44,553 nt of DNA from Patescibacteria group bacterium (GTDB taxonomy: Bacteria > Patescibacteriota > Patescibacteriia > Patescibacteriales > UBA12465), in NCBI GenBank assembly GCA_027858435.1, contig JAQICS010000015.1, forward strand, positions 1 to 44,553. The letters run 5' to 3'. A program made the translations under genes and the position numbers. Of the stretch, positions 15,379 through 36,713 are shown one piece after another; within the stretch, counting starts at the first letter, position 1; each line of letters starts with the position of its first letter. Under the pieces are notes generated by a model. That model did not search any database, was not told the origin of the DNA, and saw only the letters and a program-made list of their open reading frames with translations.

Positions 15379-17730
15379 CTATATAATTTCTTCACTACTC
15401 GTTGAACTATCATTAAGTACTCCATCTTCAATTATTATCTCATTATCAGTTGAAGTAGTTAAATCATCTGGTAACGGAATTGTTTCAAATTGATCATACA
15501 TAAATTCCTCAGAATCAGGATTATTAGTATTATCAGCTACATCCTCTTCCATGTTTTCACTATCCTCACCCATATTTTCATTTTCATTATTAACATCATC
15601 AGTGCTAGTAGCACTTGTTTCAAGTCCTTCATTTTCAAAGTTTGGAATTAAAGAATCGTCAGGATTTTCAGATAGAGATAAATATAAAGAGTTTTCTATA
15701 TCATCTAAATTACCATGGGTTAAGTATTTAGAGGATACTGATATAACCTTATTATCTTTTTCTAAAAAATTAATAACGGTATTCTCTCTTCTCTCTATTT
15801 CTTGACTTTCATACTTTTGATTAAAGTATCCTCCAGCTGAATGATCTAGTCTTCCTTCAAATTCTAAACTATCATTTTTATAGGAAAAGAAGAAAGCTCC
15901 AGAAAATGACAACCTTCCTTCTTCATAGAAAGTAACTGGGAAAGAAATAATATTGTTTGAGTAATAAAAAGATTTTGGACTTTTAAAAGCAAATGATTCA
16001 GTAGAATTTTTACCAATTAAAAATCCATCTAATTCTTTAGGGTTCTTAAGATCACTAAAATCATAAAGTGAAAGTTTTATTTCATCTTCATCGTCATCAT
16101 TTTTATACTTAGATAAAGAAGCAAAGTAGTTTCCATTATCATCTAATACTTGTAAGTAGTTTTCTAAACCATTAAGCTTTACACTTCCTAGAAAATTCAT
16201 ATTATCCATTTCTGAACTATCTATTACATAAATAGAACCTTTCTCTTCTTCAGATAATAGAAATACCCTATCTCCTACAAAATTAACTTGAAAAATATTA
16301 TCTTTAGTTCCCAGTTTTTCCATTTTTCCTTTAACTTTCAGAGCATCATCTAAAATATATAAATTAGTATAATCACTTAATTCTTCCCCTTCCTCATCAA
16401 ATCTTTCAGAATGAGTAGAAAGATAAACTAGATTATCTTTTTCATATATTTTATCTATAGAATTAAAATATCCTCTTAAATTAACTTTTGCGAAGTAGAA
16501 AATAGACCTACCATCAAGAGTGAATCGGTGTAAAATTGTCTGATTATTTAAACTACCATTTTCATTAATTTTTTCATCTACTAAATCTGTAATATCAGCT
16601 TGAACAAGAATTCTTTCAGTTTCAAGTAGTGAATCTAAATAGCTATCTAAGACCTTTTCTATTTTCTCTTTTTTCTCTAATTGACTGAAAAGTTCTTCTG
16701 AAGAATTTTCAACATCAGTAACTATTTTTTGATCTTCATCATTTAAGCTTGTGAAAATAATTTCTTTTTTAGCTTGATATTCATACAACTCTCTGTCAGC
16801 TCTTATGTCATAGGCGATATAAAAACTATCGTTGGTTAGTATTGTTTTATGATCTTTGTTTAATAAATAGAATTGTCCATTCAAATCATTATCTAAATTG
16901 TTTAAATCAAGGTGACTTACTCCTAAAAACCTATAACTATCATAATTGCTATCAAAATAATAAGTATCCCAACAACTATTATTTTCCTCACATGAAGCAA
17001 AGATGTTTACTCCGTTATCTTCAATGTTTGGTAAATAATTCTTTTCCTCATAGCTATGGTCACTTTCAAATATAAAATATAGTTGTCCTTGTTTTTCAAT
17101 TAAGCCAACTGATTTACCAATAAACTTATAATCCTTAACTAAATTAAGTTGGTTTTCTTGATTAATTTCAAATACCTTTAAAATAGTATTAGTTGAGTCT
17201 TCTTCTTGTCCATAAATAACTATTAATGAATCATGAACAATTAGACTATTTGCTTTAAAATTAAAATCATTTTCAGTTTTTATTTCATAAGTTTCTTCCT
17301 CACCCTCTGCTATTACTTTTAATTTATTTTTATTTAAATAAAATACCTTATCACCAGCTTCTTCTAAAACATTAGCATTTTGATATACATTATCTCCTTC
17401 ATTTTTTATATCTAAATAGTTTAAACTTTCTCTTTTCTCTATTTCTTTATACGAAGATCTGTGCCTATTATCGTATAAAAAATTCTTCAAATTATTAATA
17501 TCTGAATATATTTTTAAACGATTGCTATAAATATCTTCTTCTATTTCTTTCTCTTTCTCTTTCTCTTTCGCTACTTCTTTCTCAGTATCTATTTCTTCGC
17601 TGTCGCTACCATTTAAGTTTAAATTAGAAATGAATTCCCCTTCTTGCCAAGGTAGAGAGCAAGCACTAGCAACTGTTGCTACTAAAAATAGCAAAAGAGC
17701 AAGAGAAAAAATGTTTTTATTGTTTTTCAT
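15379..17730 (-). CDS. Beta-propeller domain lipoprotein with acidic C-terminal tail
   Basis: Signal peptide/lipobox LLFLVATVASAC; propeller-like repeats; D/E/N/S/T-rich tail. Confidence 0.7.
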   Translation of the reverse strand: MKNNKNIFSLALLLFLVATVASACSLPWQEGEFISNLNLNGSDSEEIDTEKEVAKEKEKEKEIEEDIYSNRLKIYSDINNLKNFLYDNRHRSSYKEIEKRESLNYLDIKNEGDNVYQNANVLEEAGDKVFYLNKNKLKVIAEGEEETYEIKTENDFNFKANSLIVHDSLIVIYGQEEDSTNTILKVFEINQENQLNLVKDYKFIGKSVGLIEKQGQLYFIFESDHSYEEKNYLPNIEDNGVNIFASCEENNSCWDTYYFDSNYDSYRFLGVSHLDLNNLDNDLNGQFYLLNKDHKTILTNDSFYIAYDIRADRELYEYQAKKEIIFTSLNDEDQKIVTDVENSSEELFSQLEKKEKIEKVLDSYLDSLLETERILVQADITDLVDEKINENGSLNNQTILHRFTLDGRSIFYFAKVNLRGYFNSIDKIYEKDNLVYLSTHSERFDEEGEELSDYTNLYILDDALKVKGKMEKLGTKDNIFQVNFVGDRVFLLSEEEKGSIYVIDSSEMDNMNFLGSVKLNGLENYLQVLDDNGNYFASLSKYKNDDDEDEIKLSLYDFSDLKNPKELDGFLIGKNSTESFAFKSPKSFYYSNNIISFPVTFYEEGRLSFSGAFFFSYKNDSLEFEGRLDHSAGGYFNQKYESQEIERRENTVINFLEKDNKVISVSSKYLTHGNLDDIENSLYLSLSENPDDSLIPNFENEGLETSATSTDDVNNENENMGEDSENMEEDVADNTNNPDSEEFMYDQFETIPLPDDLTTSTDNEIIIEDGVLNDSSTSSEEII

Positions 17731-17806: not shown

Positions 17807-18574
17807 TCAGTAGATATCAACCGTGGTTCCCACATTAGTTCTTTCATACACATATTTAGCTGAATTAACACCTAATCTAATACAACCATGAGAAACTGGG
17901 GTTCCTAGATGATCCTCTCCCTCACGGTAGCCATTTGGCCAAACTGGTAACTCATGTATTCCAATTCTTCCCCGATCAAGTCCTAACCAATATGGCATCC
18001 AAAGACCATAGGAAGCTGACCAAGCATTTTCAAATTTATTAACCACCTCATAGACCCCTGGAGTGGTTGGAGTTGAAGGTTTTCCTGTTGAAACTGAAAA
18101 GTTTTTCCATCTATATCCTTCAACTAAAAAGTATAGCTCTTGATCTTCTAAATTAATCTCAATTTTAACATCAAGTTTTTCGTTTGAAGATGAGTTTAAA
18201 GGGCTATATAAATTATCTATTTCTATAAAATCATTATAGGAGTCACCATCACTGTCTTTTTCAAATGGATTTGTTTGAAAAACAATCTCCCAGTAATCAG
18301 ATAGACCATCATCATCTACGTCACTTTCATGAATATTAATCTTTTCCTTATTAAAAGGTGAATAGGCATTTCTAATCTCTAACCTATTACTATAGCCATC
18401 GCCATCAAAATCAAGACCAAAATTATACTCATCCTTGTTGTTATTATAAAAAGTGTCCCAGGCTTTCAGAAGAAATGGATCAAGTATTTTTTCTTCTGCT
18501 AAAACTGAATTAGAACTAGCAAACAGGAAAAACAAAACAAATATTGCTATCAATGTAAATTTATTTTTAATCAT
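17807..18574 (-). CDS. L,D-transpeptidase (YkuD) with thrombospondin type-3/dockerin-like Ca2+ motifs
   Basis: HLGTPVSHGCIRLG catalytic motif; DFDGDGYSNRLE, DVDDDGLSDYWE, DSDGDSYNDFIE repeats; signal peptide. Confidence 0.92.
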   Translation of the reverse strand: MIKNKFTLIAIFVLFFLFASSNSVLAEEKILDPFLLKAWDTFYNNNKDEYNFGLDFDGDGYSNRLEIRNAYSPFNKEKINIHESDVDDDGLSDYWEIVFQTNPFEKDSDGDSYNDFIEIDNLYSPLNSSSNEKLDVKIEINLEDQELYFLVEGYRWKNFSVSTGKPSTPTTPGVYEVVNKFENAWSASYGLWMPYWLGLDRGRIGIHELPVWPNGYREGEDHLGTPVSHGCIRLGVNSAKYVYERTNVGTTVDIY

Positions 18575-18586
18575 TTTTTTAAATTA

Positions 18587-20236
18587 TTACTTTTTATTTT
18601 CTTGGTTTTTCTTTTTCTTCTTCTTATAAATTGAAAACTCACAACCACAAAATTTTTGTCTATAAACTCCTAATTCTTTGGCATATTCTTGTGATTTTCT
18701 AAAAATTTCATTGGAGCGAATATTATCCTCAAGTACTTTAATATTATATTTTTTAGATAACATTCTATTTATATTATTTATACTCTCTCCATCTTTATAC
18801 GTACTAACAAGCAAACTAGTGCCAACATAATCAAAGTTTTTTAAACTAGCTAACTTAAAAGCTTTATCTAATCTGTCAAAATAGCAAACCTTACACCTTT
18901 TTCCTGTCTCGGGTTCTTTTTCTAAACCCTTAACTTTTTCAAGCCATTTTTCATGTAAATATGGCTCAACAATTAAAGGAATATTAAATTCTTTAGCCAT
19001 TTTCTTAACCTCGTTTAATCTTTTTTCATACTCTTCTTGTGAAGATAAGTTGGAGTTATAGAAATACCAAGTAATATTATATTTAGGTTTAAGAATTTCT
19101 TTTGTTACATATGAAGAACATGGAGCACAACAGATATGAAAAAGTAATGTTTTTAAATTATTTTTATTTCTTCTATTTCCAAGATAATAGAAAAATAAAA
19201 TGGTTAAAAACATTAGTATTGTTAAAACAAAAAGCGCTAAAAATTTACCTCTTGTTTGTAAAAAAAGTCCACTAAATCCAAAAATAAAAGAAAGAGATAC
19301 AAAGACCAAAACAGTTTTTGGCTGACTTAAACCAGCATCGAGTAAGCGGTGGTGAAGGTGTTGCCTGTCAGAGAATTTAAAAGGATTCTTTTTATTTATA
19401 ATCCGTCTAATTATCGTCCACATTACATCTAGTATTGGTATTCCCATAACAAGAAGAGCAATAGCAATTTTTGCTCCAGATATAATGGATAATACTCCTA
19501 GAATATAGCCAATTAAAAGTGAACCACCTTCTCCTAAAAATATTTTAGCTGGATGCCAATTAAAGACTAAAAATCCTAAAATTGCCCCACTAAATATAAT
19601 AGCAGCTAGTGAAATATCTGGTTGAAAATATGTAGTTGATAGGGTGAATAGGAATATGATAAAGGAAGCAATAAGGCCAACACCGGATACCAAACCATCT
19701 ACTCCATCAAGTAGTTTAGTGGTATACATCATACCAAGTAGCCAAGCAAAAATTATAATTTCTGAGATAAAAGGTATAATATTTATATTAATAATTCCTC
19801 CCATGGGATTACTAACCTTTTCTATTTCCACTCCACCTAAAATAATAGATACTATAGCTAATATTGGAAAAATAAATTGTTTTAAAGGAGATAAATTATA
19901 CCTATCATCAAGAAAACCACCTATAATCAAAAACAAGGCTCCTGCAAAAAAGCCTAAAAGATGATATATATTTAAATTACTACTTAAAAATCTATTGCTA
20001 AATATAAAAAGAATTGTGAAAAAAGAAATAAATATAGCTGATCCTCCTAAAAGTGGAGTGGATTTAGAATGAATTTTTCTCTCTCCTTCTTTTCCTTTAT
20101 CTGGTTTATCTAAAATATTAAAACGCCAAGCTATTTTTTTAATCGCAAGAGTAAAAACAATTGATAACAAAAAAGCAAGACCAAAGGGTATAATATAAAA
20201 AATATTTTCACTTTTTAGAAATTCAACAAATAACAT
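18587..20236 (-). CDS. Fusion: undecaprenyl-phosphate GlcNAc-1-P transferase family (WecA/TagO/MraY-like) + QueH epoxyqueuosine reductase
   Basis: N-terminal GGFLDDRYNLSP, KLLDGVDGL, DRQHLHHRLLDAGLS; C-terminal LLFHICCAPCSSYV, GKRCKVCYFDRLDKA, YRQKFCGCEFSIY in one uninterrupted ORF. Confidence 0.92.
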   Translation of the reverse strand: MLFVEFLKSENIFYIIPFGLAFLLSIVFTLAIKKIAWRFNILDKPDKGKEGERKIHSKSTPLLGGSAIFISFFTILFIFSNRFLSSNLNIYHLLGFFAGALFLIIGGFLDDRYNLSPLKQFIFPILAIVSIILGGVEIEKVSNPMGGIININIIPFISEIIIFAWLLGMMYTTKLLDGVDGLVSGVGLIASFIIFLFTLSTTYFQPDISLAAIIFSGAILGFLVFNWHPAKIFLGEGGSLLIGYILGVLSIISGAKIAIALLVMGIPILDVMWTIIRRIINKKNPFKFSDRQHLHHRLLDAGLSQPKTVLVFVSLSFIFGFSGLFLQTRGKFLALFVLTILMFLTILFFYYLGNRRNKNNLKTLLFHICCAPCSSYVTKEILKPKYNITWYFYNSNLSSQEEYEKRLNEVKKMAKEFNIPLIVEPYLHEKWLEKVKGLEKEPETGKRCKVCYFDRLDKAFKLASLKNFDYVGTSLLVSTYKDGESINNINRMLSKKYNIKVLEDNIRSNEIFRKSQEYAKELGVYRQKFCGCEFSIYKKKKKKNQENKK

Positions 20237-20245
20237 TCATTTTAA

Positions 20246-22930
20246 TTAAATTTGTAATCCTTTTTCTATTTCAATCTCTGCCTTATCGTTAATAACAATA
20301 ATATCACGTCGTTTAAGCTCACCTGATAATATTTTATTAGCAATAACATTTTCCACCTTTTCTTGAAGTAATCTTCGTAAAGGACGGGCACCAAATTTTG
20401 GATCATAGCCTTGTTTTGCTAAAATTTTCACCCCTCTTTTGTCAGCCTTTAAGCTAAAACCTTTTTTCTCCAAATTCTTCTTTATTTTCTTAAGCATTAA
20501 GGTGGTAATTGAAGTAACATCTTCTTCACTTAAAGTTTTAAAAACAATTATACCATCAAAACGATTGATAAGCTCCGGTCGCATGTGTTTATTTAAGTGA
20601 TCATCAATTAAACCTTGGGTGATAACATTTATATCAGTATCTTTCTTTATCTCATCTTGAATATAATTAGCACCAATGTTTGAAGTAGCAATTATAATTG
20701 ACTCAGAAAAACTAACTGTTCTTCCTTGTCCATCGGTTAATCTTCCATCATCTAGCATTTGTAAAAACAAATTTAAAATATCTGGATTAGCTTTTTCTAT
20801 CTCATCAAGTAAAATAAGAGAAAATGGTTTTTTACGGACTGCTTCGGTTAGGTAACCTTTAGTACCACTGGTATCACCGATCATTTTACTTAAGCTATCA
20901 CTTCCCTGATATTCACTCATGTCAATTCTAACCAAGTAATCTTCATCACCAAAATAAATATCAGATACTGATTTTGCTAATTCTGTCTTACCAACACCAG
21001 TTGGTCCTAAAAACAAAAAGCTAGCAATTGGTTTATTTCCGCTTTTAATTTGGGCTCTAGCTCTTCTTAAACTGGCTGACACTGCTTTTACTGCTTCTTC
21101 TTGTCCCACTAAGCGCTTATGTATTTCTTCTTCAAGGTTTAATAATTTTTGACTCTCTTCTTCACTAACTTTTTGGGCTGGAATTCCAGTTAACTCACTA
21201 ATAGCAACCGCCACATCTTCTTTGCCACAAAAAGAATCTTCTGGATTATTAGCCGCCCGACTAGCAGCCACTGAAGCCGCTTTTTGTAGAAGATTAATAG
21301 CTTTAAGTGGTAAATATTTATCATGAAAATACTTTTCAGACATATTAACCGCTGCCTCAAGCGCTCCATAGACTACAAACACTCCATATTTAGATTCAAT
21401 TTGTCCCACCTTGCTCTGAAGTATTTGAATGGCATTGTTTTTCTCTGGCTCCTTAACAGAGATTTTAGTCATAGCTTCTCCCAAAGCAGTTCTTTCAACA
21501 TATGAGGAATAATTTCTAGAAGAAGCAGAAGCAATAGCAAATATATGTTTTCTTCTAACTGATTCAGCTAACACTTCAGATAGATCTAAACTTTCTTGAC
21601 TACCAGCTGAGATTCCAATTAGATTTTCAACATTATCAATATATAATACAATATTTCCTGAACGACTTGCTTCTGATATACAAGCTAAAAGTCTTTCTTG
21701 AGCCAGTGAGGCATCTGCTCCTGAAACTAAAATAGAGGTATCAAGTTCAATTAAACGACGATCGCGCATAAACTTTGGCACATCTTCCTCAACCATTATT
21801 TGAGCCAAACCATTAATTATTGTAGTTTTTCCAACTCCATTATGACCAACTAGTAATAATCCATTATGACCACCATTAAAGGATTGAAATATTTGTCTAA
21901 ATTCTTTTTCTCTTCCAATACACATTTCTAAATTTCCAAATTTAGCTTGAATAGTTAAATCATGAGAAAACTTATCTAAAGTTGGAGTAGCAATAGCGGT
22001 ATATGATCTATTCATATTGCCCTCTGGCTTTAAAAGAGCGGAGCTATGAAATTTTTTATACTTCTTTTTCAATTTACGATTAATCCTAAACCAAGCAACT
22101 GTGTTTCTAATCCTATCAGCGTTTACCCCTACCTCTTCAAGTATTTCCGCTAGAACATCATCTCTTGCATAGCAATATGAAATAATATTTAAAGGATCAA
22201 CGTTGTCTTGACCTAAATTATATGCTTCCACAAGAGCACAAATCATAATTTCCTCTAAATCATTATCTTCTTCTTCCTTGTACTCTTCTCTGGCTAAGTT
22301 TCTATCAAGCAAAGAAATCATTTTTTTAGCATCAACATTTAATCTGATAAAAACATTTTGAATTTCCTTATTCTTTAAAAGTACTCTAAAGATATGTAAA
22401 CTATTGGCTTTTTTTAAATTTAAATCCTTGGCTAAAAAACAAGCTTCCTCTATTAACTCAATTGCTTCATCAGTACAAGCATCAACTATATTAAATCTTT
22501 TCCCTTCTTTCTTATTTTTCCCCTCATCATTATTAAAATCCTTTTTTTTAATCTTTTTAGTTTCTGCTTTTTTTTGACTAATTCTGTAAACAAAAAATAA
22601 ATCAAAGAAAAGACTAAGAAGAAATATAAGTATTAAAAAATCAAATTCTTGCCAAAAAAAGATAAGATTTAAAGGATTGGCAATTATTTTATCCAAATTT
22701 AAATATATCCAAAAAGCAAAAGAAAGCCATCCTGAAATAATTACTATTATTCCTAAAATGTTGGCAATTTTATAGAATCTATTCTTAAACTTTTTTAAAA
22801 GGGATATTGATTTTTTAACCGGATAATTCCAATACAGAAACCTGCCCAAAAACCAGCTACCATAAATTTTTCTGGTATCATCATAGACAAACTCTATATC
22901 TTCAGGATTTATACGTTCTTGTTCAGGCAT
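20246..22930 (-). CDS. Membrane-anchored Clp-family AAA+ ATPase (two N-terminal TM segments, Clp_N, D1, D2)
   Basis: GHNGVGKTT and GPTGVGKTE Walker A; LLDEIEKANPDILN; hydrophobic segments in first ~120 aa. Confidence 0.9.
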   Translation of the reverse strand: MPEQERINPEDIEFVYDDTRKIYGSWFLGRFLYWNYPVKKSISLLKKFKNRFYKIANILGIIVIISGWLSFAFWIYLNLDKIIANPLNLIFFWQEFDFLILIFLLSLFFDLFFVYRISQKKAETKKIKKKDFNNDEGKNKKEGKRFNIVDACTDEAIELIEEACFLAKDLNLKKANSLHIFRVLLKNKEIQNVFIRLNVDAKKMISLLDRNLAREEYKEEEDNDLEEIMICALVEAYNLGQDNVDPLNIISYCYARDDVLAEILEEVGVNADRIRNTVAWFRINRKLKKKYKKFHSSALLKPEGNMNRSYTAIATPTLDKFSHDLTIQAKFGNLEMCIGREKEFRQIFQSFNGGHNGLLLVGHNGVGKTTIINGLAQIMVEEDVPKFMRDRRLIELDTSILVSGADASLAQERLLACISEASRSGNIVLYIDNVENLIGISAGSQESLDLSEVLAESVRRKHIFAIASASSRNYSSYVERTALGEAMTKISVKEPEKNNAIQILQSKVGQIESKYGVFVVYGALEAAVNMSEKYFHDKYLPLKAINLLQKAASVAASRAANNPEDSFCGKEDVAVAISELTGIPAQKVSEEESQKLLNLEEEIHKRLVGQEEAVKAVSASLRRARAQIKSGNKPIASFLFLGPTGVGKTELAKSVSDIYFGDEDYLVRIDMSEYQGSDSLSKMIGDTSGTKGYLTEAVRKKPFSLILLDEIEKANPDILNLFLQMLDDGRLTDGQGRTVSFSESIIIATSNIGANYIQDEIKKDTDINVITQGLIDDHLNKHMRPELINRFDGIIVFKTLSEEDVTSITTLMLKKIKKNLEKKGFSLKADKRGVKILAKQGYDPKFGARPLRRLLQEKVENVIANKILSGELKRRDIIVINDKAEIEIEKGLQI

Positions 22931-23492: not shown

Positions 23493-26138
23493 ATGTTCAA
23501 TAAATTTACCGATAAATCACAGGAAGTAATAATTAACTCTCAAGCAATTGCTACCAGCTTTGGTCAAGCAAATATTGAGGCTCTTCACATACTGCTTGCT
23601 CTTTCAGAGCAAAACGAAGGATTAACTAAACCAGTTTTAGAAAAATTAAAAATAGACCCCGATAGAATTGAAGAGCAAACTGTTAAAGAAATTGAAAAGC
23701 TTCCCCACTCTAAAACTGGAGCTTCAAATCCAAACGGACCGATTCAATCTGTATCTGGTACAGCTGAGACTGCTTTAGTATTAGAACGAGCTAAAAAAGA
23801 AGCTGATGGTATGAGCGATGAATTTATTTCTACCGAACACATTCTTCTAGCTTTAATTGGTATTAAATCAAAAGCTCAAGAAGTTCTTTTAAGCTTTAAA
23901 GTTGATTATAAAAAGGTTAAAGAAATTCTAAAAGAATTACGGGGCTCTCAACATGTGAATGATCCTTTTCCTGAAAATAAATACAAAGTACTAGAAAAAT
24001 ATACTAGCAATTTAACTGAACTTGCTAGAACTGAAAAACTAGATCCAGTTATCGGACGTGACCAAGAAATCAGACGTATTATGCAAGTACTACTCCGCCG
24101 TACTAAAAACAATCCTGTTTTAATCGGTGAACCTGGTACTGGTAAGACTGCTATTGTTGAAGGACTAGCGCAAAGAATTATCTCCGGTGACGTTCCAGAA
24201 AATTTAAAAGATAAAGAAATAGTAACTCTTGATTTAGGTTCTTTAGTAGCGGGAGCAAAATTTAGAGGTGAATTTGAAGATCGTTTAAAAGCAGTTATAA
24301 AAGAAGTTAAATCACAAAATGGAAAAATAATTCTTTTTATCGACGAACTCCACACTCTAGTTGGAACTGGCGCTTCCGATGGTGCAATGGATGCTTCAAA
24401 TATGTTAAAGCCAGCTTTAGCTAAAGGTGATCTTAGAACAATTGGAGCAACCACCACTAAAGAATATCAAAAATATATTGAAAAAGATGCCGCTCTTGAA
24501 AGACGTTTTCAACCAATTTTAACTGATGAACCAACTATTGAAGACACCGTTAGTATGTTAAGAGGGCTAAAGGAAAAATACGAAGTTCATCACGGCGTTA
24601 GAATTACTGACGATGCTTTAATAGCAGCTGCTAAACTCTCTAACCGCTATATCAGCGATAGATTTCTACCGGACAAAGCAGTAGATTTAATTGATGAAGC
24701 CACTTCTTCTCTGCGCATGGAAATTGATTCAATGCCAGAAGAACTTGATCAATTAAAAAGAAATATTAATCAATTAGAATTAAATAAAGCTGGTTTAAAA
24801 AATAGTGCTAAAAAAACTAATAACTCTAAAGGATTAAAATCTCTTAATTCTGAATTAGCTCAACTTAAAGAAAAAGCAAATCAATTAGAACTTCATTGGA
24901 AGAATGAAAAAAATATAATTTCTAAACTTCGCTCTTTAAAGAAAGAACTAGAAGATTTAAAAATTAAATCAGAAATACTACAAAGACAAGGAGCTGATTT
25001 AAATGAAGTAGCGGAAATTAAATATGGCTTAATTCCGGAAAAAGAGAGTGAAATAAAAAATAACCAACTTGAATTAACTAAAATACAAAAGAAAGGTCAA
25101 AGAATCCTAAAAGAAGAAGTTGATGAAGAAGATATTGCTAAAGTTGTAGCTCGCTGGACTGGTATTCCAACTAACAAAATGCTACAAGATGATATTAAAA
25201 AACTAGCTAACGCTGAAGATAATCTTGCTAAAAAGGTTATTGGTCAAAATGAAGCAATTGAAGCAATTTCTAATGCCTTACGTCGTAGCCGAGCCGGAAT
25301 TAATGAAGAGAAAAAACCAATTGGCTCATATTTATTTGTTGGACCAAGTGGTGTTGGAAAAACTGAATTAGCTAAATCACTAGCTCGCTTTATGTTTAAT
25401 GATGAAAAATCATTAATCAGATTAGACATGAGTGAGTTTATGGAAAAGCACTCTGTAGCTAAATTAATCGGTTCCCCTCCTGGATACGTTGGTCATGACG
25501 ATGGTGGTCAATTAACTGACAAAGTTAGACGTCATCCATATAGTGTAATTCTATTTGATGAAATTGAAAAAGCTCATCCAGATATGTTTAATATGCTGCT
25601 ACAAATTTTAGATGACGGTCGCTTAACTGACGCCAAAGGAAGAGTAGTTAATTTCAAAAATACTATTGTAATTATGACCTCAAATCTTGGCAATGAAATC
25701 ATTAAACAATATTCAATTGGCTTTAACACTGAAGAGGATAAAGAAAATGGTGGTCGTGATCAGGAAATGAAAGACAAGATTGATGGAATATTAAAACAAA
25801 ACTTTAAACTAGAATTTCTTAACCGTATTGATGAAATTGTTTTATTTAAGAGCTTAAATAAAAAGAGTTTAGAAAAGATTGTTGACCTTGAATTAGCTAA
25901 AGTTGAAAAAAGACTTAATAATAAGAATATTACCATTAAAGTTAGTGCTAAGGTTAAAAAACTACTGGCTGAAAAAGGCTATGACACTAGCTATGGTGCT
26001 CGTCCTCTTAAAAGATTAATCCAAACTATGATTCTAGATGAAATGGCAATGGATATTATTGAAGGTAAAATTAATGAAGGAGATAAGGTTAATATTGACT
26101 TGGGGAAAAAGTCAGAAATTGTGTTGGCTGTAAAATAA
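23493..26138 (+). CDS. clpB: ClpB-type disaggregase/AAA+ chaperone
   Basis: GEPGTGKTAIVEGLAQRI, GAKFRGEFEDRLKAV, AALERRFQP, coiled-coil M-domain-like region, GSPPGYVGHDDGGQLT, LDEIEKAHPD. Confidence 0.93.
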   Translation: MFNKFTDKSQEVIINSQAIATSFGQANIEALHILLALSEQNEGLTKPVLEKLKIDPDRIEEQTVKEIEKLPHSKTGASNPNGPIQSVSGTAETALVLERAKKEADGMSDEFISTEHILLALIGIKSKAQEVLLSFKVDYKKVKEILKELRGSQHVNDPFPENKYKVLEKYTSNLTELARTEKLDPVIGRDQEIRRIMQVLLRRTKNNPVLIGEPGTGKTAIVEGLAQRIISGDVPENLKDKEIVTLDLGSLVAGAKFRGEFEDRLKAVIKEVKSQNGKIILFIDELHTLVGTGASDGAMDASNMLKPALAKGDLRTIGATTTKEYQKYIEKDAALERRFQPILTDEPTIEDTVSMLRGLKEKYEVHHGVRITDDALIAAAKLSNRYISDRFLPDKAVDLIDEATSSLRMEIDSMPEELDQLKRNINQLELNKAGLKNSAKKTNNSKGLKSLNSELAQLKEKANQLELHWKNEKNIISKLRSLKKELEDLKIKSEILQRQGADLNEVAEIKYGLIPEKESEIKNNQLELTKIQKKGQRILKEEVDEEDIAKVVARWTGIPTNKMLQDDIKKLANAEDNLAKKVIGQNEAIEAISNALRRSRAGINEEKKPIGSYLFVGPSGVGKTELAKSLARFMFNDEKSLIRLDMSEFMEKHSVAKLIGSPPGYVGHDDGGQLTDKVRRHPYSVILFDEIEKAHPDMFNMLLQILDDGRLTDAKGRVVNFKNTIVIMTSNLGNEIIKQYSIGFNTEEDKENGGRDQEMKDKIDGILKQNFKLEFLNRIDEIVLFKSLNKKSLEKIVDLELAKVEKRLNNKNITIKVSAKVKKLLAEKGYDTSYGARPLKRLIQTMILDEMAMDIIEGKINEGDKVNIDLGKKSEIVLAVK

Positions 26139-31668: not shown

Positions 31669-33903
31669 TTATAACCTCTTTGTCTTAAGAAGTAATGAAT
31701 TTGTAACGACACTTACAGAACTAAGAGCCATTGCTGATCCAGCAATAATAGGAGAAAGCAACCAGCCTGTCCAAAAATAGAATGCTCCGGCAGCAACCGG
31801 AATACCAATAATATTATAGAATAAAGCCCAAAACATATTTTGTTTAATTTTACTCATTGTCATTTTACTTAACTTAATTGCCCGAGAAATATCACGTAGA
31901 TCATTTTTCATTAAAACAATATTACCTGTTTCCATGGCCACATCTGTTCCTGATCCCATGGCAATCCCAATATCAGCCTGAGCTAATGCCGGTGAATCAT
32001 TTATTCCATCCCCAATCATTGCAACTTTACCCTTTTCTTGAAGCTTTTTAACATGGTTAACTTTATCCTCCGGTAACACTTCCGCAAAGAAGTTGGAAAT
32101 TCCAACCTGCTTTACAATCGCTTGTGCCGTTCTTTTATTATCACCAGTTATCATATAAACCTCCACTCCTAGTTTTAACAAACTAGAAACAGCTTCCTTA
32201 GAAGTTTCTCTTAACACATCCGCAACCGCGACAAGTCCAATACAATCATTATCTCTTGCTACTAGCATTACTGTTTTCCCTTCATTTTCTAATTTCTCCA
32301 TCTCCTTTCCTATGTTTTCTTTAGCATTTGTAACTAAAGAGTCTATTTCAATATTATTATCAATCATTAATTTTCTGGTACCTATAATGACTAGTTTATC
32401 ATCAAGTATTCCTCTAACACCTCCTCCAATAACCGCATGGAAATCAGTCACGTCTTGTAGTTTTATGTTTTGTTTTTTAGCTTCGCTTACTATTGCTTGT
32501 GCTAAAGGATGCTCCGATTTCTGTTCCACTGAAGCAATTACTTTAAGAAGCTCATCGCTTTTTATAATTTTCTGATTTTCTGAATCTATCTGTACAAGAT
32601 TTGTTACTTCTGGTTCACCTTTTGTAATAGTCCCCGTTTTATCAAACACAACATAATTAATCTTGTGAGCTATTTCTAAAGAATCAGCTCCTTTAATTAA
32701 TATTCCATTTTGAGCACCCTTACCCGAACCCACCATAATAGCTGTTGGTGTTGCTAGTCCTAAAGCACAAGGACAAGCGATTACTAATACTGCTACTGAC
32801 GTCATAAGGGCGAAAGAGAAACCTTGTCCTAATAGTAAAAACCAAATTAGAAAAGTGGAAACAGCAATAATAATAACTACGGCAACAAAGTAAGCTGACA
32901 CCTGATCGGCAAATCTTTGAATAGGCGCCTTTTTCCCCTGAGCTTCATCAATTAATTTAATAATTTTAGCCAAGGTGGTATTTGCGCCAATTTTAGTCGC
33001 CTTAAAAATAATTGAACCATTTTTATTAATTGTTGCACCGACGACAGGATCATTTATTTTTTTTTCAACTGGCACACTCTCCCCAGTTATCATACTTTCA
33101 TCAACATATGAATGTCCTTCAACAATTTCTCCGTCAACCGGAATGCTTTCACCTGGTTTAACAATAACCATGTCACCTAATTGAACCTCATCAACTGAAA
33201 CTTTTATTTCTTGTCCATTTTTTCGTATGGTTGCTATTTTGGGGCTCAAATCCATTAAAGACCTAATAGCATCGCCTGTTTTTCCTTTAGCAATTGCTTC
33301 AAGAAGTTTTCCTAAAACAACAAGAGTTATTAATATTGCGGATGTCTCAAAGTATTGACCGCCCATTGAATCAGACAAGATACTGTAGACACTAAAGAAA
33401 TAGGCAGCGCTTGTACCAAGTGCTATCAATGTGTCCATATTAGCACTCTTATTCTTCAAGGCAATCCAAGCACCTTGATAAAATTGCCAACCAACTACAA
33501 ATTGAACAGGTGTTGCTAGAAACCAAAGAATGTAATCTGCATAAGGAATTGTTATATTAAGCCACATAAAAACCATGCCCAATATAAAAGCTGGCGTAGC
33601 AAATATTAAACTGATTAAAAGTTTTCTTTTATATTTTTTTATTTCCCCGTGCTGCATGGCAAACTGTTTTTCAAAAGCATTTCCATAATCAGCCAGCTCA
33701 GCACCATAACCCACTTTTGTGATAGTAGAGATTAAATCTTTCGTCTTTAATTTATTATCATCATATTTAATAGACGCTTTATTTGATGATAAATTAACGT
33801 TTGATTTTTTTACTCCGTTCTTTTTTAAAAGAGTTTTATCAATCAAAGTTGAACACGAAGCACAATGCATCCCTGAAATTTGGAGCTCAATTTTTTTAAT
33901 CAT
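31669..33903 (-). CDS. copA: Heavy-metal (Cu+-type) P1B ATPase, CopA-like
   Basis: [61 protein letters not shown]. Confidence 0.95.
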
Positions 33904-33939
33904 AATTTTATTTCTTTAAACTTCTAAACTTCTTAACTA

Positions 33940-34920
33940 TTATTGTAACATTTCTTCAATTATTTGTTTTAGATTATCATATGAAACTGCCCCTCCTAAA
34001 GGTTTGCCATTGATAAAGTCTCCAGGAGTCCCGCTAACACCAAACTTTACGCCCTCTTGATAATCTGCTTCTACATTATTACTATATTTACCAGATGAGA
34101 CACATGAATCAAACTGGGCAACATCAAGCCCTATATTTTTGGCAAATGTTGAAAGTCTAGTCTCACTAATTGTTTGTTGATTTGTATACACCTCATCTGA
34201 AAACTCCCAAAATTTACCTTGTTCTGCAGCACACTCTGAAGCCTCGGCGGTTTTTCTAGCTAAAGGATGGATACTGTCTAATGGAAAGTGTTTAAAAACC
34301 CAGCTAACATCTTCTGGATATTCAGCAAGTATTTGATTCATAGTCTCATGAAAACGGGCACAATATGGACATTGAAAATCTGAATATTCAACAATTGTTA
34401 TTGGCGCATTTATATTACCTTTTATATTATCATCTTTTGATACGGGTATATCCAGCACATCTCCTTGAGCTGGTGCTTGATTACCAGCCGGGTTATTTGT
34501 TGGTACTACACTATCTTCTTTAGCAACATTATTATTACTTTTTACTATTACTCCTTTTTTTTCACCCTCACTACCCTGATTGATTAATATAAAAATAAGT
34601 ACTAAGACACCAATTCCTATCATAGTTAACATAACAGATAGATAAACACTATTTCCTTTTAATTTTTTATCATCTTTTTTAGTTACATGTTTCTCACTTT
34701 CTTCTTCATAATCCTCCGCGACATAATCACCGGCGCTAGCAATTATTTTTTTAATATTTGCAATACTTGTTTGATCCTCATCAAAAACAACTACCGCCTT
34801 ACCTGTTTCTTTATTAACCTTACTCATGGTAACACCTTTATGATCATTTAACTCATTTTCGATTAAACTAGAGCAGGAACCACAATGAATTCCTTTAATG
34901 TTTAACTTTAATTTTTTCAT
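33940..34920 (-). CDS. HMA domain - TM - DsbA/thioredoxin-like fusion protein
   Basis: KGIHCGSCSSLIE HMA; TM; PITIVEYSDFQCPYCARFHETMNQI ... GVSGTPGDFINGKPLGGAVSYD. Confidence 0.9.
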   Translation of the reverse strand: MKKLKLNIKGIHCGSCSSLIENELNDHKGVTMSKVNKETGKAVVVFDEDQTSIANIKKIIASAGDYVAEDYEEESEKHVTKKDDKKLKGNSVYLSVMLTMIGIGVLVLIFILINQGSEGEKKGVIVKSNNNVAKEDSVVPTNNPAGNQAPAQGDVLDIPVSKDDNIKGNINAPITIVEYSDFQCPYCARFHETMNQILAEYPEDVSWVFKHFPLDSIHPLARKTAEASECAAEQGKFWEFSDEVYTNQQTISETRLSTFAKNIGLDVAQFDSCVSSGKYSNNVEADYQEGVKFGVSGTPGDFINGKPLGGAVSYDNLKQIIEEMLQ

Positions 34921-34949
34921 ATATTTATAGTTAGATATTAATTAATGTA

Positions 34950-36713
34950 CTATTGCCCACAACTATCACTCTCACCTCCTCCACAACCGCAACCGGTAGC
35001 ACCCGAGGGGATGACTTCGGTTTCTGAAACTGCTAAAGCTGACAGGGTGCCACTTTGTGCAGATCCGGCTTTCTCATCTACAACTTCGATTGTCCCAGAA
35101 ACCATTCCCATCCAACAACTAAATTTATATATTCCTGGTTGTTCTGGTGTAAACTCTTTCACACTTGTCTTTCCAGGAGTCAGAGCAATTTGCCCATCAA
35201 AAAGACCACGCGACATAACAGCATTTGTACAACCGCTTGTTCCTTTATCTGTGATTTCCCATCTTACTGGTATCCCGGCTCTCACTTTTAGTCTATTTGG
35301 TGTATAACCAGTAGACTTTGCGTCCATTTTTAAAACCTGTATACCATTAACAACTTCTGGTAATCCATCATCTTTAAATTCAATTGCCTGACTTTTATTA
35401 ATTGTCACATCACTTAGACTAGTCCAGCCCAAAACATTTAACTGCGCGTTAATGTTAAATAGAGCAAAGAATAAAACTAACACACCAGCTACTTTCAAAA
35501 AACGATTAGCTAAATGTGGTTTCTTTGAAAATTTTACACTCGATATACCAATGAATAACATAATTGGAAGAGTCCCGAGAGCAAAAAATAGCATTATGAG
35601 CATACCCTGTATCATACTACCAGACGCTAATGCTAGGGTTTGAGCTGTTATAGTAAAACCACAAGGAAGAAAAAAAGTTAAAGCACCCATCACAAACGGC
35701 ATATAACGCCCTTTAAAGTTATCCTCATTTACAGCATAACGAGTAATGAATTTAGGAGCAGAAATTTGAAATTTTTGAAAATATTTTACTCCCAACATTT
35801 GCAAAGCTAAAAATAACATCATTAATGATACCAGTGCTATTAATATAGTATTAGCTGTTAAAGATAACTTAAAAAAACTACCAATCGCACCCAAAATACC
35901 TCCAAACAAAGCATAAGAAACTAATCTTCCAGAATTAAATATTAAATGAGGTTGTAATTTTTTAATACTTTTATCATCTTTTGCATATAGGCTTGACCAC
36001 TGTTTTGACATTGAGAGAATAACCCCACCTACAAGCGCAGCGCAGCTTGAAAGCCCAGCTAATAAACCAAAAACTAAAAACATCGGCAAGGCAGAAGTAG
36101 AATTAACACTAATTAATGCTGATATACCAGTTTTATTAATAAATGAAAAACCAATAATAAGAGCAATAGAAACAGCCACAATTATTAACAGATCATGAAA
36201 CTTTTGTTTGTTTATAATAAGCTCTCCTCTAGCAGTAGTAATTAACTTTTCTTCGTGTTTTTTCTTTGGATTATCTGAAAAAATGTAGTCATCACCTTTA
36301 AATAACTTATTTAACTCTTCAATCTTAGGATAATCCCCGGAATATCTAATTTCAACCTGCCCCTTACCAACGGAGGCATCAACCGATTTCACTTCATCTC
36401 TTTTTATTAGACTTTTTTCAGTAGTTATTTCACATGATGCGCAATGCATTCCTTCTACAAAGTAAACGTGTTTTTTTATCTTAGCACTTTCTCGATTCTC
36501 ATGTAATTTATAATCAAGTCCTAATTTATTTATTTTATCTAGAATCTTTTTTTCACTAATCTCTTCCTCATTAAATTCTACTTCACATTTATTTGTTTCG
36601 AAATCAACATTGACTTTTCTTACTCCAGTTAAAATTTCAATTTCTGCCTCAACTTGGTACTTGTCTTCTTGTTTCTTTTTATTCTGAAGTAAGATGCTTA
36701 AATTTTTTATCAT
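34950..36713 (-). CDS. HMA-HMA-TauE/SafE (DsbD-like)-cupredoxin membrane protein with Cys-rich tail
   Basis: VEGMHCASC; polytopic FLPCGFTITAQTLALASGS; cupredoxin-like YTPNRLKVRAGIPVRWEITDKGTSGC...YKFSCWMGMVSGTIEV; tail GCGCGGGESDSCGQ. Confidence 0.88.
   Translation of the reverse strand: MIKNLSILLQNKKKQEDKYQVEAEIEILTGVRKVNVDFETNKCEVEFNEEEISEKKILDKINKLGLDYKLHENRESAKIKKHVYFVEGMHCASCEITTEKSLIKRDEVKSVDASVGKGQVEIRYSGDYPKIEELNKLFKGDDYIFSDNPKKKHEEKLITTARGELIINKQKFHDLLIIVAVSIALIIGFSFINKTGISALISVNSTSALPMFLVFGLLAGLSSCAALVGGVILSMSKQWSSLYAKDDKSIKKLQPHLIFNSGRLVSYALFGGILGAIGSFFKLSLTANTILIALVSLMMLFLALQMLGVKYFQKFQISAPKFITRYAVNEDNFKGRYMPFVMGALTFFLPCGFTITAQTLALASGSMIQGMLIMLFFALGTLPIMLFIGISSVKFSKKPHLANRFLKVAGVLVLFFALFNINAQLNVLGWTSLSDVTINKSQAIEFKDDGLPEVVNGIQVLKMDAKSTGYTPNRLKVRAGIPVRWEITDKGTSGCTNAVMSRGLFDGQIALTPGKTSVKEFTPEQPGIYKFSCWMGMVSGTIEVVDEKAGSAQSGTLSALAVSETEVIPSGATGCGCGGGESDSCGQ

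Follow-up and report, generated by a model that had tools for sequence, protein, structure and literature searches.

The closest known counterpart of the C-terminal half of the protein discussed here is QueH of T. maritima (PF02677, PDB 7lc5), which is a solo protein. The N-terminal half has its described counterparts in the GT4 enzymes WecA (TIGR02380), MraY and DPAGT1; in MraY and WecA the catalytic loops lie in the cytoplasm. A third point of comparison is provided by proteins of sister families within the same order (PF04892+PF02677, e.g. L060 and L064), which likewise carry a membrane protein N-terminal to QueH, often within the same gene cluster. A literature search retrieved no paper on QueH fused to either VanZ or GT4; the architecture may be listed in UniProt or InterPro.

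In the window, by which we mean the whole stretch of 44,553 nucleotides analysed here (contig JAQICS010000015.1 of the Patescibacteria assembly GCA_027858435.1), the open reading frame listing contains a single ATG-started frame of 549 aa, 20236-18587 on the minus strand, that joins the two enzyme families. The gene, its parts and its conserved neighbours are the following:

18587..20236, minus strand: GT4-QueH fusion gene of 549 aa, starting with ATG; frame shared by 25 genomes of the family
19478..19957, minus strand: Glycos_transf_4 (PF00953) core, residues 94-253; from Pfam match and motif conservation
19187..19243, minus strand: final membrane-spanning helix of the GT4 half, at approximately residues 332-350; from hydropathy and a predicted helix 331-360
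19148..19186, minus strand: short basic linker, residues 351-363, without a start codon; from start codon scan and hydropathy
18629..19147, minus strand: QueH (PF02677) domain, residues 364-536, with HICCAPC, RCKVC and KFCGC; from Pfam and the fold match to T. maritima QueH
20246..22930, minus strand: gene for a Clp-type AAA protein with hydrophobic segments at its N-terminus, conserved neighbour upstream, 9 bases from the fusion; from gene-order comparison
17807..18574, minus strand: L,D-transpeptidase (YkuD) gene, downstream, conserved neighbour; from gene-order comparison
15379..17730, minus strand: beta-propeller protein gene, downstream, conserved neighbour; from gene-order comparison

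Each half scores on its own in Pfam, Glycos_transf_4 over residues 94-253 (E 6.8e-29, 101.4 bits against a cut-off of 27) and QueH over residues 364-536 (E 4.7e-57, 193.3 bits against a cut-off of 23.5, profile positions 1-173 of 175). When solved structures are searched with phmmer, the C-terminal half leads to T. maritima QueH (E 2.1e-26) and the N-terminal half to MraY proteins (E about 1e-7). A sequence-only reading of this stretch had described a continuous frame joining a polyprenyl-phosphate sugar-1-P transferase to QueH, with the motifs HICCAPC, CKVC and KFCGC and with no start codon near the junction, and all of this was borne out. The three motifs are present (CKVC as RCKVC), and the first start codon met on going upstream from HICC is an ATG at a distance of 25 codons, within the last transmembrane helix; neither GTG nor TTG occurs between this ATG and HICC. 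GT4-QueH is a new domain architecture of known families.

The genome itself is assembled in 70 contigs (916 kb) and holds a single QueH. Such fragmentation, and otherwise only the oddness of the architecture, could suggest that an assembly or sequencing artefact merged two genes, but the chance of this is practically negligible given that the identical in-frame junction occurs in 25 separate genomes, with protein identities to the query of 54-62% among the fused relatives. QueH is found in 30 of 39 family genomes, and both halves were verified in one frame in 25 of these 30 (G410 among them, via record L037), so that a frameshift or stop error at this one locus is ruled out. Among the others, G409 is fused going by frame length only, the QueH gene of G411 (probably L034) is truncated by a contig end, and three members of the window's own genus (G008, G012 and G015) encode GT4 and QueH as adjacent separate genes. 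The sequence-only reading had named a frameshift or stop at the junction, or two genes in all relatives, as grounds for giving the fusion up; what is found instead is 25 fused genes and three split pairs. The fusion is kept across 10 genera of the family, and the named records that bear it are labelled Patescibacteria or Parcubacteria group, the record cut by the contig end being Candidatus Falkowbacteria.

In all 25 fused frames the nearest ATG lies at least 19 codons before HxCC, in or near the last helix, and none has an ATG within the 18 codons before HxCC, on which grounds a separate internal start for QueH was rejected. TTG (Leu) codons do occur in this stretch in some fused frames, at positions that are not conserved, and weak internal initiation of QueH is therefore possible. 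Six close pairs of fused genes were compared: one was saturated, and the other five gave dN/dS values of 0.04-0.11 for both halves. The GT4 half and the QueH half are both under purifying selection. The fusion architecture is real and conserved, with each half stemming from a known enzyme family.

Outside the family this architecture was not encountered. QueH occurs in 158 of 382 class genomes and, among the matches listed, is nearly always about 180-220 aa long, with frames above 500 aa confined to the family; in 381 phylum genomes no QueH frame above 290 aa was found outside it. Several longer frames were inspected as candidates. QueH frames of 777-1540 aa in G003, G026 and G034 were rejected as triple fusions since their sequence contains runs of N; among the long frames of these genomes and G028, only that of G028 is readable through. 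There (L011, 712-3159, minus strand, G028:C4) GT4-QueH runs on, uninterrupted by a stop codon, into an L,D-transpeptidase that has a signal-like segment, giving a frame of 816 aa that is a possible triple fusion. A 492-aa QueH frame of G356 (L122, 1199-2674, minus strand, G356:C23) was set aside as a GT4-QueH candidate: it carries a C-terminal secreted-type domain rather than GT4, namely a signal-like segment followed by what by eye resembles a phosphodiester glycosidase domain.

The N-terminal half shares with WecA, MraY and DPAGT1 the fold, the DD motif, DG.DGL, the HLHHR loop and about 11 helices, and Foldseek matches the membrane part to MraY (8tlu) and to human DPAGT1. Its core contains DDRY, TTKLLDGVDGL and FLGEGGS, with the HLHHR loop downstream, and it differs from the described enzymes in having GEGGS for GDxGS and TTK for an Asn-containing stretch. 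By alignment to MraY, the Asp of GDxGS and the Asn before DG.DGL are replaced by Glu and Lys, respectively, and these replacements are conserved in the GT4 clade across the order. TTK.LDG.DGL is present in 42 of the 42 GT4 sequences of the tree set and [FY]LGE[GS]G(S) in 39 as judged by simple patterns, with GEGGA in two more in the alignment; FLGD occurs in none of the 42. The label of WecA/MraY family given by the sequence-only reading holds as far as PF00953 and a WecA-like character are concerned, whereas MraY has to be dropped: the NCBIfam score for TIGR00445 (MraY) is 60.9, below the model cut-off of 192.05, and a separate MraY is encoded elsewhere in the genome (L144, G000:C66), with the motifs NETDGLDGL and MGDTGS. 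The score for TIGR02380 (WecA), 116, is likewise far under the family cut-off of 326.05. Taken together, the divergent motifs and the separate MraY indicate that GT4 is a divergent enzyme in its own right next to MraY, preserved in this form throughout the order. By homology it is a member of PF00953, and family membership suggests a polyprenyl-phosphate sugar-1-P transferase; canonical catalysis is not assumed, as Glu in place of Asp and Lys in place of Asn may mean a different substrate or chemistry.

The QueH half resembles the T. maritima enzyme over the whole domain, in the conserved Cys motifs and in its fold (Foldseek match of the predicted model to 7lc5, E 6.2e-10, TM 0.90 normalised by target, rmsd 1.7). 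Two differences stand out: QueH of the window forms the C-terminal tail of a membrane protein, and the Asp of HVCCAPD is replaced by Cys (HICCAPC) in all 26 sequences aligned. Seven cysteines (C369, C370, C373, C448, C451, C530 and C532) are invariant in these 26 sequences. A look for tgt and queA in the genome, suggested along with the original observation, found both alongside QueH. The transporter QPTR was not found in this genome, nor was a full QueC; the partial matches to QueC cover short stretches within longer frames, which probably encode other ATP-pyrophosphatase-fold enzymes. PreQ1 is likely to be obtained by salvage through another transporter. Several other transporter families have also been reported (PMC11130926).

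Within the family, QueH follows the queuosine pathway. Both QueH and QueA are present in 27 genomes, QueH without QueA in none, QueA without QueH in two genomes that are 85-88% complete, and neither in five (Fisher p = 7.5e-5, uncorrected for kinship; G011 and G013 are omitted, their sequence being masked or cut off downstream of GT4). Four genomes (G002, G005, G014 and G017) retain GT4 and TGT and have neither QueH nor QueA. This co-loss with GT4 retained indicates that QueH tracks the queuosine pathway and that GT4 is independent of QueH; together with the three two-gene genomes, it shows that the two halves can be separated. A search for QueG that was positive in 9 of 14 control genomes gave no hit in any of 60 relatives, so that QueH is the only known oQ reductase there. 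The QueH half therefore appears to work in the normal queuosine pathway. It is highly improbable that this domain has given up its tRNA role and been recruited into the GT4 pathway, as the unusual GT4 motifs in the same protein might suggest, because every invariant QueH residue is kept, QueH is lost with QueA and the genomes have no other oQ reductase.

Hydropathy predicts 10 helices in the membrane part, one long stretch probably holding two, and an AlphaFold2 model built from a shallow alignment has 11 long helices (mean pLDDT 74). In this model the QueH domain is mostly at pLDDT 83-98, the middle of the GT4 part is weak at about 50-65, and an unbroken helix (331-360) runs into QueH. Eleven helices, a basic C-terminal linker and cytoplasmic catalytic loops would put QueH in the same compartment as its tRNA, the cytoplasm, and QueH is thus predicted to be tethered at the cytoplasmic face of the membrane. 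The sequence-only reading had considered an unexpected tethering of QueH to cell-wall lipid synthesis: the tethering fits the in-frame fusion in most relatives and the predicted membrane anchor, but a functional tie between the two processes is not supported, given the loss of QueH with QueA while GT4 stays, the three split pairs of the same genus and the VanZ partner of sister families. A coupling in which the synthesis of lipid-linked sugars is regulated by queuosine status, or queuosine status by that synthesis, could be read from the single polypeptide and from the conserved cell-envelope neighbour, the L,D-transpeptidase; it is nevertheless very unlikely, since GT4 remains without QueH where QueA is lost, QueH is solo elsewhere and the sequence of the linker varies among relatives.

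The gene neighbourhood gives an indication of how the fusion arose. Family members usually have these genes arranged as Clp, GT4-QueH, L,D-transpeptidase, beta-propeller, and in sister families the Clp-type AAA gene is often 5' of GT4 where the sequence reaches that far. The window itself holds two divergently oriented Clp-type AAA genes (20246-22930 and 23493-26138), the first of which belongs to the conserved cluster upstream of GT4. A probable copper cluster lies at 31669-36713. Its genes encode an HMA-bearing P-type ATPase, a protein that joins an HMA domain to a DsbA-like thioredoxin, and a DsbD-like protein in which HMA and cupredoxin domains occur. In sister families QueH is often joined to VanZ instead, and three arrangements are seen: GT4, VanZ and QueH as three genes (L068, L077 and L115), GT4 with a fused VanZ-QueH gene directly after it (L060, L064, L069 and L070), and VanZ-QueH apart from GT4 (L061, L062 and L065). 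VanZ-QueH proteins of about 300 aa were found in these last seven records and in L124, the VanZ domain being confirmed by Pfam in three; their membrane partner differs from that of the window in being VanZ-like, with about four helices and without a sugar-transferase domain.

VanZ was found in none of 36 family genomes searched, against 15 of 24 others. A role of VanZ as a required transporter of queuosine precursors is unlikely because family members with TGT, QueA and QueH have no VanZ. An operon Clp-GT4-VanZ-QueH is the likely source of the fusion, and the gene orders are most simply read as a loss of VanZ and a fusion of QueH to GT4. In the GT4 tree, the three split pairs are nested in the window's genus among fused genes, as are all but one of the four QueH-less genes (98/97, 95/91), and the remaining QueH-less gene is sister to a fused gene (100/100), which makes split and loss derived states. 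The deeper forks are weak (48/24), so a single origin of the fusion is a matter of parsimony and not of proof.

With VanZ as partner in sister families and GT4 here, QueH is membrane-anchored by two partners within one order, which is the single hint that the anchor might matter. A membrane anchor could help QueH through proximity to membrane-bound ribosomes, to an electron donor or to an unknown membrane step in the handling of queuosine precursors. Two different membrane partners N-terminal to a protein that, elsewhere in the class and phylum, nearly always stands alone (about 180-220 aa), and the persistence of the fusion across the 10 genera, would agree with such a benefit. We consider it unlikely: in G008, G012 and G015 QueH is a separate gene without a membrane part, some members of the order have solo QueH together with QueA, and operon adjacency alone explains the choice of fusion partners. 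The broader idea that, in this order of Patescibacteria, the last queuosine enzyme has repeatedly been anchored, via VanZ or GT4, because its reaction gains from a membrane site seems to us quite improbable.

We favour, at a probability of roughly three in four, that the gene encodes one bifunctional membrane protein that arose from a GT4-VanZ-QueH operon, with a tether that is tolerated and two active sites that are independent. Going by its family, the 11-helix, WecA-like (not MraY) N-terminal part would work at the cytoplasmic leaflet, loading polyprenyl phosphate with sugar-1-phosphate taken from a nucleotide sugar, and QueH would hang on the cytoplasmic side on a linker of about 13 residues. 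There it would reduce epoxyqueuosine to queuosine on tRNA-GUN after TGT and QueA have acted, in keeping with its co-loss with QueA. The fusion would have been born at or near the base of the family, when the intervening VanZ was lost and QueH joined to GT4, and since then would have been kept, split or lost depending on the family member. This fusion of neighbouring genes was probably opportunistic; most likely the cells tolerate the tether but do not need it, with QueH passively anchored.

Altogether, a tRNA-modifying enzyme is carried on a membrane protein throughout a family of tiny Patescibacteria and not in one odd assembly, and the locus exemplifies how an operon may evolve into a fusion that is later split or lost in a reduced genome. 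If the tether matters, this would be an unusual location for tRNA modification, and a true benefit of the membrane would mean that one step of tRNA wobble modification takes place at the membrane. If the tether has no importance, the family offers a clear warning that functional linkage inferred from gene fusion can fail.
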